Of a stretch of 21,125 nucleotides of DNA, positions 10,312 through 20,977 are shown piece by piece. The position numbers and the translations under genes are program-made. Position 1 is the first letter of the stretch; each line of letters starts with the position of its first letter. The stretch is from positions 1 to 21,125 of the IMG/VR virus record IMGVR_UViG_3300001970_000067. One strand, 5' to 3'. This DNA is from a virus. The notes beneath the pieces are model-generated. The model was not told where the DNA came from. It saw only the letters and a program-made list of their open reading frames with translations, and searched no databases.

Positions 10312-10344
10312 CGGGTGTGGTAGCAGCCCTGCGAAATTTGCAGT

Positions 10345-10872
10345 ATGGCAGAAACAGTCACCGATATCGTCACCGGGCAGTGGTCGAGCTCGCTGGCGTT
10401 CGTTCGCACCGACACGCAGCAGATCGGCACAGTCCGTAACTCGGCGTCGAGCTCGTCTACGTACACGTTCTCGGACGGCAGCGGCACCGGGCAGGCCGAC
10501 CTAGCATTTGGTGACACCCGCACGATCGCCGCCAACACGGTCGAGGAGATCGACCTACTCAACCTCGACCGCTCGCACCTGGGAGTCACCGTGCCGATGG
10601 TGTTTCGGCAGTTGGTGGCCGTGCGGATCGTCAACAAAGAGACGGCCGCCGGCAAAAAGCTGCTCGTCGGTGTCGATCCCGGCTCGCCAACCACGTCTTA
10701 CGCCTTCGAGGTCGGGCCGGGCATGGAAGTGGCGTCCGCCAACACGACCGACGGCTGGGTTGTCACGAACACCAACAGCACGCTGCGGCTGGCCAACCCG
10801 AACAACACCGAGCTCGAGTACGAGATCTTCCTGCTGGGCAACAGCACGGCGGTGGGAGGTAGCGGACTATGA
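10345..10872 (+). CDS. Beta-rich probable virion surface protein, copy A
   Basis: A 175-residue protein, Ser/Thr/Gly/Val-rich and low in Lys, with no membrane segment. The arrangement (FGDTRTIAANTVEEIDLLNL, then VRIVNKETAAGKKLLVGV, FEVGPGMEVASANTTDGWVVTNTNSTLRLANPNN, EYEIFLLGN) matches a common type of small phage structural protein with a jelly-roll-like order of strands. The next gene has the same arrangement, so the two are probably related. It lacks a good ribosome binding site; a near-palindromic CTGCGAAATTTGCAG just precedes the ATG. Likely a decoration or tail-surface protein. Confidence 0.7.
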   Translation: MAETVTDIVTGQWSSSLAFVRTDTQQIGTVRNSASSSSTYTFSDGSGTGQADLAFGDTRTIAANTVEEIDLLNLDRSHLGVTVPMVFRQLVAVRIVNKETAAGKKLLVGVDPGSPTTSYAFEVGPGMEVASANTTDGWVVTNTNSTLRLANPNNTELEYEIFLLGNSTAVGGSGL

Positions 10873-17278: not shown

Positions 17279-17340
17279 GCCAAGGATGGCTTGACCGGTG
17301 CGGCGGGCGATGGATCGCCAGCCGGCCGGATTTCACGGAG
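17279..17340 (+). promoter_or_regulatory. CsrA-site-like leader of the csrA gene
   Basis: GCCAAGGATGGC (17279-17290) folds with AAGGAT as a six-base loop. GGCGATGGATCGCC (17306-17319) is a perfect five-base-pair stem with TGGA as loop. A further GGA lies at 17328-17330, and the Shine-Dalgarno GGAG (17337-17340) carries another. Loop-exposed GGA motifs repeated up to the ribosome binding site are the known hallmark of CsrA targets; the first also matches the CAAGGATG core. This suggests repression of csrA by its own product or by host CsrA. Confidence 0.55.
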
Positions 17341-17345
17341 CACAC

Positions 17346-17576
17346 ATGCTGCATCTAAGCAGGAAAGAAGGCGAGTCAATCGTCTTACCCGGCCGCTCGC
17401 TTCGGCCGCTCGACGACGACCAGATCGAGATCGTCGTGCTCGACATCATCGGAGACAAGGTCCGGCTGGGCATCGACGCCCCGGACGAAATCGAAGTTTA
17501 CCGCCACGAGGTGTGGCGGGGCATCAGGAGGGACGAACGCAAGGAGCGTGACAATGGGATTCAAGAGAGCTACTAA
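17346..17576 (+). CDS. csrA: CsrA-family translational regulator
   Basis: A 76-residue protein from ATG 17346. MLHLSRKEGESIVL matches the CsrA N-terminus (MLxLTRKxGExIxI). VLDIIGDKVRLGIDAPDEIEVYRHEVWRGI matches the core strands, the GxVRLGIxAP loop and the RNA-contact Arg in the V(H/Y)R motif. The usual E-E after that Arg is H-E here. A few extra residues (LPGRSLRPLDDD) sit between strands 1 and 2, and the C-terminal tail is charged and helical. CsrA dimers bind GGA loops in mRNA leaders and block translation. This phage copy may regulate phage or host mRNAs. It overlaps the next gene by 23 bases. Confidence 0.9.
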   Translation: MLHLSRKEGESIVLPGRSLRPLDDDQIEIVVLDIIGDKVRLGIDAPDEIEVYRHEVWRGIRRDERKERDNGIQESY

Positions 17577-18477
17577 AAGTCAGGCCAAGCTACGGGCTGC
17601 TGTTTTCGGTCCGAGCGGTGCTGGCAAGACCTACAGCAGTTTGCGAATTGCGAAGGGGCTGGCAGGCGACAAGCCGGTGGCGTTTATCGACACCGAGCGA
17701 GGATCGGCCAGCAAATACAGCGACCGCTTTGAGTTCGACGTCCTAGAACTCGACGACAAGACGGTCGATGGCTACGTCGCAGCGATCAAGCTGGCTGCCG
17801 CCGAGGGCTATGGCGTGCTGGTTATCGACAGCCTCAGCCATGCGTGGCAGCAGCTGCTCGAAGAGATCGACAAGCTGGCCAAGGCCAAATACAGAGGCAA
17901 CACGTGGTCGGCCTGGTCAGAGGGCACGCCGCTGCAGCGTCGCCTGATCGACGCCATCCTGAATTTTCCGGGCCACATCATCGCCACGATGCGGTCGAAG
18001 ACTGAGTGGCAGACGACGCAGGACAACGGCAAGAGCCGCCCGGTGCGGGTTGGGCTGGCACCGGAACAGGGCAAGGGCGTCGAGTACGAGTTTGACCTGC
18101 TGCTCGAAATCAGCACCGAGCACATCGCCAACGTGATCAAGGATCGCACCGGCAAGTGGCAGGACAAGCTAATCGAAAAGCCCGGCGAGGATTTCGGTGC
18201 CGAGCTGGCTGCGTGGCTGAGCGACGGCGCGCCCGCAAAAACACCCCCCCCGGCACCAAAACCGGCCGAGGCACCGACCGATCCGCTGGTGGAGAAGATC
18301 CGCGAGACGATCGCCAAGGCCGAGACGGTCAAGCGGCTGAGTGCCATCGTCGATCGCCTCGACACGCTGCTGTCGGAGGGTGCGATCGAGACCGAGGACT
18401 GGTCCGCTCTGACAGAGTTGGTCAATGAGCGACACAACGAGATTGAGCCACAGGAGGTGCCAGATGCCGTGGCCTGA
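17554..18477 (+). CDS. Sak4-like RecA-fold recombination ATPase
   Basis: A 307-residue protein. ATG 17554 with AAGGAG seven bases upstream is preferred over GTG 17548. Walker A is GPSGAGKT (residues 19-26) and Walker B is GVLVIDSLSHAW (Asp92). The segment GHIIATMRSKTEWQ...GKSRPVRVGLAPEQGKGVEYEFDLLLEI is typical of phage nucleotide-binding proteins of the Sak4 (short RecA-like) group. A Pro-rich linker (about residues 227-245) leads to a C-terminal helical region. Sak4 proteins promote single-strand annealing together with an SSB, and an SSB-like gene follows two genes downstream. Acts on phage DNA in the cytoplasm. Confidence 0.87.
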   Translation: MGFKRATKSQAKLRAAVFGPSGAGKTYSSLRIAKGLAGDKPVAFIDTERGSASKYSDRFEFDVLELDDKTVDGYVAAIKLAAAEGYGVLVIDSLSHAWQQLLEEIDKLAKAKYRGNTWSAWSEGTPLQRRLIDAILNFPGHIIATMRSKTEWQTTQDNGKSRPVRVGLAPEQGKGVEYEFDLLLEISTEHIANVIKDRTGKWQDKLIEKPGEDFGAELAAWLSDGAPAKTPPPAPKPAEAPTDPLVEKIRETIAKAETVKRLSAIVDRLDTLLSEGAIETEDWSALTELVNERHNEIEPQEVPDAVA

Positions 18478-19416: not shown

Positions 19417-19530
19417 ACGGTAAAGCGTGACGGGCAGCCAAGCGGTCGAGTGGCTTTGTAACACCGCTGTCGCAGCTGATGTAGCAAACTCCCATCGGTA
19501 AAGTGGCCGCCGGCCCGGCGTGACAGGGCA
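19417..19530 (+). repeat. Short two-part direct repeat and tRNA-like hairpin in a gene gap
   Basis: The 162-base gap between 19392 and 19555 contains CGGTAAAG twice (starting near 19418 and 19495), each followed by a CGTGAC(G/A)GG(G)CA segment. Between them, AGCGGT (about 19452) and ACCGCT pair around a 16-base loop. The stretch AGCCAAGCGGT...TTTGTAACACCGC...GTCGC resembles the D and anticodon regions of a tRNA lacking the 5' half of its anticodon stem, and no TTCGA T-loop follows. A 24-codon frame (GTG 19427 to TAA 19501) also crosses it. It may be a tRNA remnant or a regulatory hairpin. Confidence 0.35.
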
Positions 19531-19554
19531 AATACAACGAAAGGAGCGACAAGG

Positions 19555-19872
19555 ATGTCAGATTACTTCTCCACCAACACCGCCATGCTGCCGCTGTTCG
19601 CACCGGCGGCACGGAAGCAACACCCGGCAACGTCACATGCCGCAGCGGCAAAAGCAAAGTCGTTTCAACGAGGCCATGCGGCGAAGATCCTGGCGGCCCT
19701 CGAGCACGGGCCGGCCGGGCAGAGCGAGATCGGCCGGCGGGCCGGGCTGCAGCCGCACCAGGTCAACAAGCGGCTAAACGAGCTGGCGATCGCTGGGGCG
19801 ATTGAGCTGACAGGGCTGCTGTGCGAAAGCAGCAGCGGGGGCAAAGAGAGGCAGTGGAGGAGGTGCTCCTAA
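19555..19872 (+). CDS. Winged-helix DNA-binding protein
   Basis: A 105-residue protein with AAGGAGCGACAAGG before ATG 19555. Residues about 43-90 (AAKILAALEHGPAGQSEIGRRAGLQPHQVNKRLNELAIAGAIELTG) read as a MarR/ArsR-like winged helix: SEIGRRAGLQPHQVNKRLNEL is the HTH and the following strands form the wing. The N-terminus is Ala/His-rich and probably flexible. Similar proteins in phages are often replication- or switch-linked regulators; the target is unknown. Its stop lies inside the first copy of the 42-bp repeat. Confidence 0.7.
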   Translation: MSDYFSTNTAMLPLFAPAARKQHPATSHAAAAKAKSFQRGHAAKILAALEHGPAGQSEIGRRAGLQPHQVNKRLNELAIAGAIELTGLLCESSSGGKERQWRRCS

Positions 19873-19912
19873 TCGTATCTGCGGCGTGGCGTTTACGTGC
19901 GGCAGTGGTTGA
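19871..19912 (+). repeat. 42-bp direct repeat, copy 1
   Basis: The 42 bases starting AATCGTATCTGCGGCGTGGC and ending in TGA recur at 20508-20549 with one difference (T at 19893, C in copy 2). In the frame ending at TGA both encode NRICGVAFTCGSG, and the difference is synonymous (Phe). In copy 1 that frame has no ATG, GTG or TTG between an upstream TGA (19808) and the repeat. The repeat ends 26 bases before the ATG of the next gene (19939), exactly as copy 2 does. Confidence 0.85.
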
Positions 19913-19938
19913 GAGCAGAGGAAGCAAAGGAGAGAGCA

Positions 19939-20430
19939 ATGGGTGTTTGTCTGAAGAACGTCGACATGGATTGGTTTAAGGATGAGTCACAGGCCCCAAT
20001 TGGATATGCCTGCATTTCGGCTCTTTACCCCTCGCCAGAAAGGTCGCGAGATCGTGAGCGAGTGCGGCGTGGCATTAGCATGGGAATGGTGACTGCAGCG
20101 CGGCTGGTTAAACGAGCGAAAGATGCCGACAACGGACCCATTTACATCAACGTCAGAGAAGCTGTCGATTGGTTGCAGTCGGAGTATTACGCCGAGCAAG
20201 CCTGCATTCATCATGAGAAATCGCAAAGTAACAACCGCATAGCGTCTGAAGAAAACACGACCTGCGATTTGGAGCAGGCGACGAACGTGCCCCAAGTAGT
20301 TTGCGACCGTCTGGCGGCGGCCTTGGAGCGGATCGCGGAGGCCTTGGAGACGATTGCCACCGACCCGCCCAAAAATTACCACACCTCTTCCGGCCCACTT
20401 TTGCACGCATCTACAGACGGTAACGAATGA
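19939..20430 (+). CDS. Orphan early protein downstream of the repeat
   Basis: A 163-residue protein. ATG 19939 behind AAAGGAGAGA is chosen over the in-frame GTG 19897, which lies inside the repeat. The mid-part (RVRRGISMGMVTAARLVKRAKDADNGPIYINVREAVDWLQSEYYAEQ) could be a helix-turn-helix-like segment. A Ser/Asn-rich linker leads to a helical region (CDRLAAALERIAEALETIA) with heptad-like spacing and a low-complexity tail. AT content is a little higher than in the neighbours. No family is recognised. Confidence 0.6.
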   Translation: MGVCLKNVDMDWFKDESQAPIGYACISALYPSPERSRDRERVRRGISMGMVTAARLVKRAKDADNGPIYINVREAVDWLQSEYYAEQACIHHEKSQSNNRIASEENTTCDLEQATNVPQVVCDRLAAALERIAEALETIATDPPKNYHTSSGPLLHASTDGNE

Positions 20431-20437
20431 ACCAACG

Positions 20438-20466
20438 GTGACGCTGCCGGATGTCGCACGTGACGC
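20438..20466. promoter_or_regulatory. Possible operator half-sites
   Basis: GTGACGCT (20438-20445) and GTGACGC (20460-20466) lie 22 bases apart just upstream of the 19-codon micro-ORF. They match the core of the TAGTGACGCTA motif in the switch region. The match is short and GC-rich, so chance is possible. Confidence 0.25.
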
Positions 20467-20489
20467 GGCCAATACACAAGGGAGGTGAG

Positions 20490-20549
20490 ATGGCAACCAA
20501 GCAACAAAATCGTATCTGCGGCGTGGCGTTCACGTGCGGCAGTGGTTGA
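20490..20549 (+). CDS. 19-codon micro-ORF built on the 42-bp repeat
   Basis: ATG 20490 with GGGAGGTGAG directly upstream opens MATKQQNRICGVAFTCGSG and stops at the TGA of repeat copy 2. The strong ribosome binding site and the synonymous-only difference from copy 1 support translation. It ends 26 bases before the next gene. Possible roles are a leader peptide coupling translation to the next gene, or a small Cys-containing peptide. The function is unknown. Confidence 0.45.
   Translation: MATKQQNRICGVAFTCGSG
20508..20549 (+). repeat. 42-bp direct repeat, copy 2
   Basis: Second copy of the repeat at 19871-19912, 41 of 42 bases identical. Here it forms the 3' part of a micro-ORF with its own ATG and ribosome binding site. 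The flanking sequences of the two copies are unrelated. Confidence 0.85.
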
Positions 20550-20575
20550 TTTGAAAGAAAGATAGGAGGCCAACA

Positions 20576-20977
20576 ATGGCTGGAATGATTATTGAGCTGC
20601 GGCGAAAAGCGAACGGAAGACGAGACGGCAGCTACACGTCTGACGTCCGTGTGTTTAGGACGTTGCCAAAAACAAAAGGCGCATCGCCGTCTCTTCGGGT
20701 TCGCATTGCTGACAGGGTACTAACTCAATGCGGCTGGAATCGTGGCGATTTTGTAACGCTTGACTACGACGTCGTTGAGGGTCTTTTTAGCATGCGTCCG
20801 GCCGACAAGAAATCGGGCAATAAACTGAGCGTTGACAAGAAAAAACGCGCTCCCTCTGGCGTCAGGTTCGTGGTTGAAATGTCTCATTTGGTGCTGTTTG
20901 GGCTCAAAGAAGATATCGGCTACGACTGTTCAGTCGTTATCGCATCACAAGATCTTCTTACCTTCAAGAGGTCGTAA
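20576..20977 (+). CDS. Orphan basic protein, AbrB-like fold possible
   Basis: A 133-residue basic protein with AGGAGG before ATG 20576. The middle part (SLRVRIADRVLTQCGWNRGDFVTLDYDVVEGLFSMRPADKK) has the order of a swapped-hairpin AbrB-type segment: strand, helix, CGWxRGDxVxLxxD turn, strand. A Lys-rich linker and a second beta-rich segment (VRFVVEMSHLVLFGLKEDI) follow. It could be a DNA-binding regulator, but similarity is by eye only. It is the second gene preceded by the 42-bp repeat at a 26-base distance. Confidence 0.6.
   Translation: MAGMIIELRRKANGRRDGSYTSDVRVFRTLPKTKGASPSLRVRIADRVLTQCGWNRGDFVTLDYDVVEGLFSMRPADKKSGNKLSVDKKKRAPSGVRFVVEMSHLVLFGLKEDIGYDCSVVIASQDLLTFKRS

Follow-up and report, generated by a model that had tools for sequence, protein, structure and literature searches.

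The 42-base repeat found ahead of two different genes in this phage genome is probably a conserved gene-junction element of phages that is present here in duplicate, a boundary sequence that would act as a seam for the exchange of gene modules and that is likely to have a role in the expression of whichever gene follows it. Comparison with related phage sequences points to this reading through the conservation of the element, its presence as a single copy in other genomes, the unrelated genes that flank it, the ending of homology within it, and a pair of relatives with a filled and an empty site. The window, by which we mean the whole stretch of DNA that was analyzed, is a virus record of 21,125 bases, in which the two copies (R1 and R2) are set among the following features:

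17548..18477, plus strand: Sak4-like/RecA-like AAA ATPase, a candidate recombinase for short homologies
19555..19872, plus strand: winged-helix DNA-binding gene, 105 aa (Pfam DprA_WH, 4e-5; PHROG 1123)
19871..20507, plus strand: 637-base unit (R1, ORF163 and spacer), a putative inserted or duplicated segment
19871..19912, plus strand: R1, copy 1 of the junction element, with its 21-base core at 19883-19903 and a stem-loop/dyad at 19879-19905
19913..19938, plus strand: leader and ribosome-binding site (RBS) of R1, AAGCAAAGGAGA, near the leader consensus of relatives (GAAAGCAAAGGAGACGAG-ATG)
19939..20430, plus strand: ORF163, a 163-aa ORF between R1 and R2, for which viral contigs gave no homologue except in an identical record
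20490..20549, plus strand: 19-codon ORF, MATKQQNRICGVAFTCGSG, which ends in R2 and is judged probably incidental
20508..20549, plus strand: R2, copy 2 of the junction element, with its core at 20520-20540 and a stem-loop/dyad at 20516-20542
20550..20575, plus strand: leader and RBS of R2, ATAGGAGG, further from the consensus than the leader of R1
20576..20977, plus strand: ORF133, a 133-aa ORF with a homologue in the phage contig L165 (35% identity over 127 aa)

The repeat is real and not a product of chance: the copies agree at 41 of 42 bases and stand 637 bases apart, and the number of such pairs expected from base composition is about 1e-14. As the preliminary description had reported, their only difference is a T/C change (19894/20531) that leaves NRICGVAFTCGSG-stop as the reading of both copies in one frame, and the TGA closing this frame ends 26 bases ahead of an ATG in each case (19939 for R1, 20576 for R2). 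Its account of R2 as the end of a 19-codon ORF with a ribosome-binding site (GGGAGG), and of R1 as lacking a standard start in the corresponding frame (no ATG, GTG or TTG), was likewise confirmed; a slippery site that would support the frameshift by which the R1 frame was proposed to be entered from the winged-helix gene was not seen. Both of the next genes had been taken for orphans; this holds for ORF163, for which no homologue was found in viral contigs beyond an identical record, but not for ORF133, whose homologue lies directly 3' of L165's own copy of the element. The ATG-proximal leaders of R1 and R2 are alike only in part. Both copies occur in just one further record, L003, which matches the window at 100% identity over their overlap and continues for 3.9 kb past the window; it is thus not independent evidence.

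Two further observations concern the surroundings of the copies. The leader before the winged-helix gene (19513-19554, CGTGACAGGGCAAATACAACGAAAGGAG) resembles the segment before the 19-codon ORF (20455-20489, CGTGACGCGGCCAATACACAAGGGAGG), and R2 may have been brought in along with the remains of a winged-helix leader. In L003, positions 10336-10560, 3' of ORF133, hold two more winged-helix-like gene starts (MSDYYPDVAEVLPLF... and VSDYWPDVDSL...) that look truncated or joined to an HNH-type gene, and these are apparently further debris of the same hypervariable slot as the element junction.

A search with the winged-helix protein gave as the first relative the sister phage L016, whose protein is 85% identical and which has an orthologous element right after the winged-helix stop, matching R2 at 26 of 27 bases in the core region; the next gene after it is unrelated and starts at a different distance. 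In 80 relatives the sequence behind the winged-helix gene was inspected, and many of them had the core, GCGGCGTNNCGTTNACGTGCGGC: it matched at 17 or more of 20 bases in 13 places, all of them on the gene strand, and the reversed pattern gave none at this threshold. The element was first encountered pattern-free, via winged-helix or Sak4 homology. One pattern scan returned 84 contigs, from which five (L132, L136, L151, L156 and L179) were removed as chance matches in unrelated coding sequence. The pattern fixes 18 core bases plus one S, so that a set selected with it cannot show variation there; what is concluded on variation draws on the positions left free, on the flanks and on those elements that were met independently of the pattern (L006, L016, L019, L020, L022, L042, L044, L060, L073, L075, L077, L078, L084 and L107). 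The contigs are fragments of uncultured phages, partly redundant and related, and the element is present in more than 60 of them.

Nearly all of the non-chance matches share one anatomy, in which an upstream gene ending in AASR-TGA is followed by about 12 strongly conserved bases and then by a leader that ends in the RBS of the next gene; in many relatives the consensus of this leader is GAGGNTGGTGAAAGGNAACGCGAAAGCAAAGGAGACGAG, after which comes the next ATG. In relatives without an insert the final codons of the winged-helix gene, AASR-stop, thus belong to the element. This coding part has been lost in both R1 and R2, a point against the reading favored here, and because of this loss the two copies may be relics kept by their recency. 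With a covariance model, each relative that was searched yielded a single element per contig, and only the window genome yielded two. Searches of isolate phages and plasmids gave short chance matches only, and no near-exact core was found in GTDB genomes. A degenerate peptide pattern picked out a 33-base stretch of L027 (5135-5167, minus strand) with 28 matches to the L016 element, its flanks matching beyond the pattern; it is antisense to the place where an apparently unrelated gene ends, just ahead of the next start. The covariance model misses this stretch, and we treat it as probably a chance resemblance.

Phage genomes are mosaics, and the genes on both sides of the element proved to be interchangeable. 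The upstream proteins comprise the main winged-helix family (41), a diverged winged-helix group of 4 (28-33% identity), 3 members of an unrelated family, found on contigs that lack any winged-helix gene, and one singleton ORF; the downstream proteins fall in 17 clusters. The sequence is hence kept while both flanks differ (4 upstream by 17 downstream clusters), as is expected of a boundary sequence. This is illustrated by L125 and L122, which have no neighbor family in common: their upstream coding sequences are 38% identical, which is the chance level, their cores are 100% identical, and the similarity continues at about 92% over the 39 bases 3' of the core. Among pairs of contigs with at least 85% identity over at least 250 bases, 15 of the 18 left-homologous cases lose their similarity within 49 bases on the right side of the core, and 4 of the 7 right-homologous ones within 40 bases on its left side, which places the breakpoints of close relatives at the element, albeit in a small sample. 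In mosaic phages it is common for homology to run out where a gene ends, so that the clustering of breakpoints partly reflects gene boundaries. Only the near-identical pairs count as strong evidence: L123 and L182 are 97% identical for 1.5 kb and diverge 43 bases past the core, L139 and L187, again 97% identical for 1.5 kb, diverge 24 bases past it, and L084 and L150, 95% identical on the right side, diverge 14 bases to the left of it.

Insertions at the junction were also detected. L084 has the empty arrangement, and L078 has the same with an insert of about 200 bases carrying a 64-aa ORF (ORF64) between the winged-helix gene and the element; the two are homologous up to the element and 95.5% identical from the core onward after the insert. 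The element is displaced from the winged-helix gene in L042, L073, L160 and L170 as well, and the inserts and neighbors include HNH and T5orf172 nuclease-like genes. In L016 a 34-base, 91% identical duplicate of the winged-helix 3' end stands after the next ORF, which gives a second example, independent of the window, of duplicated junction sequence enclosing an ORF. The native order in L165 is winged-helix gene, element and ORF133 homologue; since this homologue directly follows the element there, R2-ORF133 looks like the ancestral type of junction in the window phage, with R1 and ORF163 as the insertion.

Boundary sequences are not findable at most mosaic boundaries (PMC3029335). The closest precedent for the window element is gene 68 of Island3, one of the cluster I mycobacteriophages, an inserted orphan that is bracketed by an approximately 50-bp duplicate of the 3' end of the upstream gene, an arrangement attributed to recombination between duplicated sequences (PMC3029335). 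The likeness lies in a short conserved sequence at a gene boundary with module exchange, and R1-ORF163-R2 repeats the arrangement of a gene between direct junction repeats for which relatives with an empty site exist. The window element differs from it in having been traced through more than 60 contigs with many neighbors, in its dyad around the stop codon and in reaching the next RBS, and it is an additional, well-documented boundary sequence.

About half of the winged-helix relatives (among them L043, L050, L078 and L097) have a second conserved type of junction, in which the next gene overlaps the stop as TGGAGG(GTGGCG/TGCGTG)TGATG, or might also begin in frame from the ATG inside GAATGG (ME[G/V]..V M); it holds inserted genes, many of them nucleases. 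In the junction region of L017 and L047 long runs of 5-base units of the kind (N)GGCN/AAGGC form two blocks, one after the winged-helix gene and one about 1 kb further on.

The foremost alternative, to which we would give slightly less than an even chance, is that the element is primarily cis-regulatory, either as an RNA hairpin with a coupling or limiting effect on translation of the gene behind it or as the operator of a phage regulator, with the seam a side effect of its conservation. The conservation is undiminished for about 10-12 bases after the stop, on par with the codons before it, and because it continues past the stop, coding by the upstream gene cannot explain these bases. Around the stop codon lies a dyad, CGTC-KCGKT-GACG, with CGTG-GCGTT-YACG as the window form. 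Across 60 sequences pairing in its ten-pair stem is kept at 96%, as against at most 51% when the partner is slid, and 13 cells are changed on both sides as against 2.8 in shuffles (0/500), three pairs having double changes. The loop-closing pair is C-G in other phages, G-C in R2 and L016, and G.U in R1; both sides of this pair have thus changed relative to the other phages, and the T/C difference between R1 and R2 keeps it paired (G·U/G-C). The outer G-C pair has become U-A in nine sequences, and on folding, the element of L016 forms a 9-bp stem (z about -2). All 57 carriers have TGA as the upstream stop, compared with 38 of the 54 winged-helix genes that lack the element (p 3e-6), which fits a need for its G to pair. 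For the most part the next ATG lies 39-42 bases away. On the other side, while the ten-pair stem stands above both controls, the independent double changes are few and RNAalifold gives a covariation term of only -0.1, the folding energy of most native elements does not surpass that of shuffled sequences, and the distance from core to ATG ranges from 14 to 71 bases around its mode, being 25 in L016, which also does away with the fixed spacing that had been proposed. No Rfam family matched the element at the gathering score or at E up to 5, and known RNA families as well as a tRNA-like structure were searched for and rejected. The idea of an RNA element put forward in the preliminary description thus finds some covariation in its favor, but no excess folding stability.

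The window phage also encodes a CsrA homologue (17298-17576; Pfam CsrA, 1e-18), which is shared by its sister phage L016 but missing from 18 further records that carry the element. As a general ligand of the element CsrA was rejected, the csrA gene being found only in these two among 20 records tested.

Short repeats before start codons have been described in cluster K mycobacteriophages, where the start-associated sequences (SAS) and their extended forms (ESAS) stand in one orientation ahead of genes of different families; the ESAS contain imperfect inverted repeats upstream of the RBS, upstream stop codons can lie within, and the SAS occur many times per genome and include the RBS, 3-7 bases before the ATG (PMC3203893). 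The window element resembles them in orientation and in position before start codons, but it normally occurs once per contig, lies mostly 39-42 bases from the ATG, and shares no sequence with the SAS consensus; it accordingly falls outside this family.

We consider it improbable that the element is an integron-like or homing-type site, at which a dedicated recombinase or homing endonuclease would recognize it and insert cassettes. The integron attC cassettes offer a likeness only, an imperfect hairpin beside exchangeable small ORFs: on reading the sequence, the element shows no attC-type boxes (GTTRRRY/RYYYAAC), there is no integron integrase, and the integrase of the window, which matches generic phage integrase families only, is of the temperate-phage type and lies 4 kb away on the other strand. 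A homing-type site would be consistent with the frequency of HNH or GIY-YIG-type genes beside the winged-helix gene, with HNH or T5orf172 genes directly 3' of it in several relatives, with an HNH gene directly 3' of the element in L107 and L149, and with the inserts between winged-helix gene and element in L078, L073, L042, L160 and L170; yet most inserts lack element copies on both sides, and no recombinase gene is consistently adjacent.

That the repeat reflects a conserved short leader peptide, whether a coupling peptide or one containing a cysteine, as the preliminary description had also envisaged, is very unlikely. Besides the 19-codon ORF of R2 with its good RBS, an ATG in the peptide frame is present in some relatives, such as L084 (MESNGGVSLTCGRGW), L073 (MIANNGGVSLTCCT) and L078, where the stop overlaps the next ATG; nevertheless 44 of the 60 aligned elements have no ATG in this frame, like R1 which has no start codon in it. 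The frame reads GV[S/A/T/L][L/V/F]TC across relatives, with replacements at two residues, and in L022 it is broken by a one-base insertion in the loop. Neither start codon, frame nor residues are therefore conserved in the manner of a leader peptide, and the frameshifts, non-synonymous changes and variable distances seen in relatives are the very findings that had been named in advance as speaking against it. The coding frame that is conserved is a different one, that of the upstream gene, whose AASR-stop is kept in 56 of 60 sequences, two of these having it as PASR-stop, though it is partly fixed by the search pattern. The element probably marks a place of gene swapping rather than encoding a peptide. 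A simple tandem duplication or assembly artefact of no wider meaning, which two copies in one genome and a non-independent second record might suggest, is scarcely credible, given the one-base difference between the copies and the distinct leaders and genes behind them, and it is refuted by the independent occurrence of the element in the other contigs.

The description of the repeat as a mobile or duplicated leader cassette was thus essentially right, in that the element precedes many unrelated genes elsewhere and is duplicated around an inserted gene here. In the gene-junction reading that we favor, the native element would link the 3' end of the winged-helix gene (AASR-TGA) with the next gene's RBS, and the downstream module, sometimes also the upstream gene, would be exchanged between phages by recombination with breakpoints in the element. 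The phage's own Sak4-like annealing/RecA-type ATPase might plausibly drive such exchange: its gene lies about 1.4 kb upstream of the element in the window phage, and a homologue is found upstream of the element in 17 of 59 element contigs. In the window lineage one exchange would have put ORF163 behind the winged-helix gene and ahead of the original element, with a copy left on either side of it, so that R1 and R2 may each serve as the leader of the next gene, with the dyad possibly acting in its expression; the element would in this way supply a ready leader to whichever gene lands behind it. A stronger version, which we advance only as a speculation with the likelihood against it, is that of a dedicated exchange site, in which a portable module of about 55-75 bases (terminal codons, dyad and RBS leader) would be under selection in this group of uncultured phages by letting an annealing recombinase swap downstream modules with their expression signals intact. 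An element that recurs in dozens of phages beside different neighbors, with internal breakpoints and with both filled and empty sites, makes the boundary-sequence idea testable, and together with the nearby Sak4-like gene it offers a handle for a direct recombination assay.
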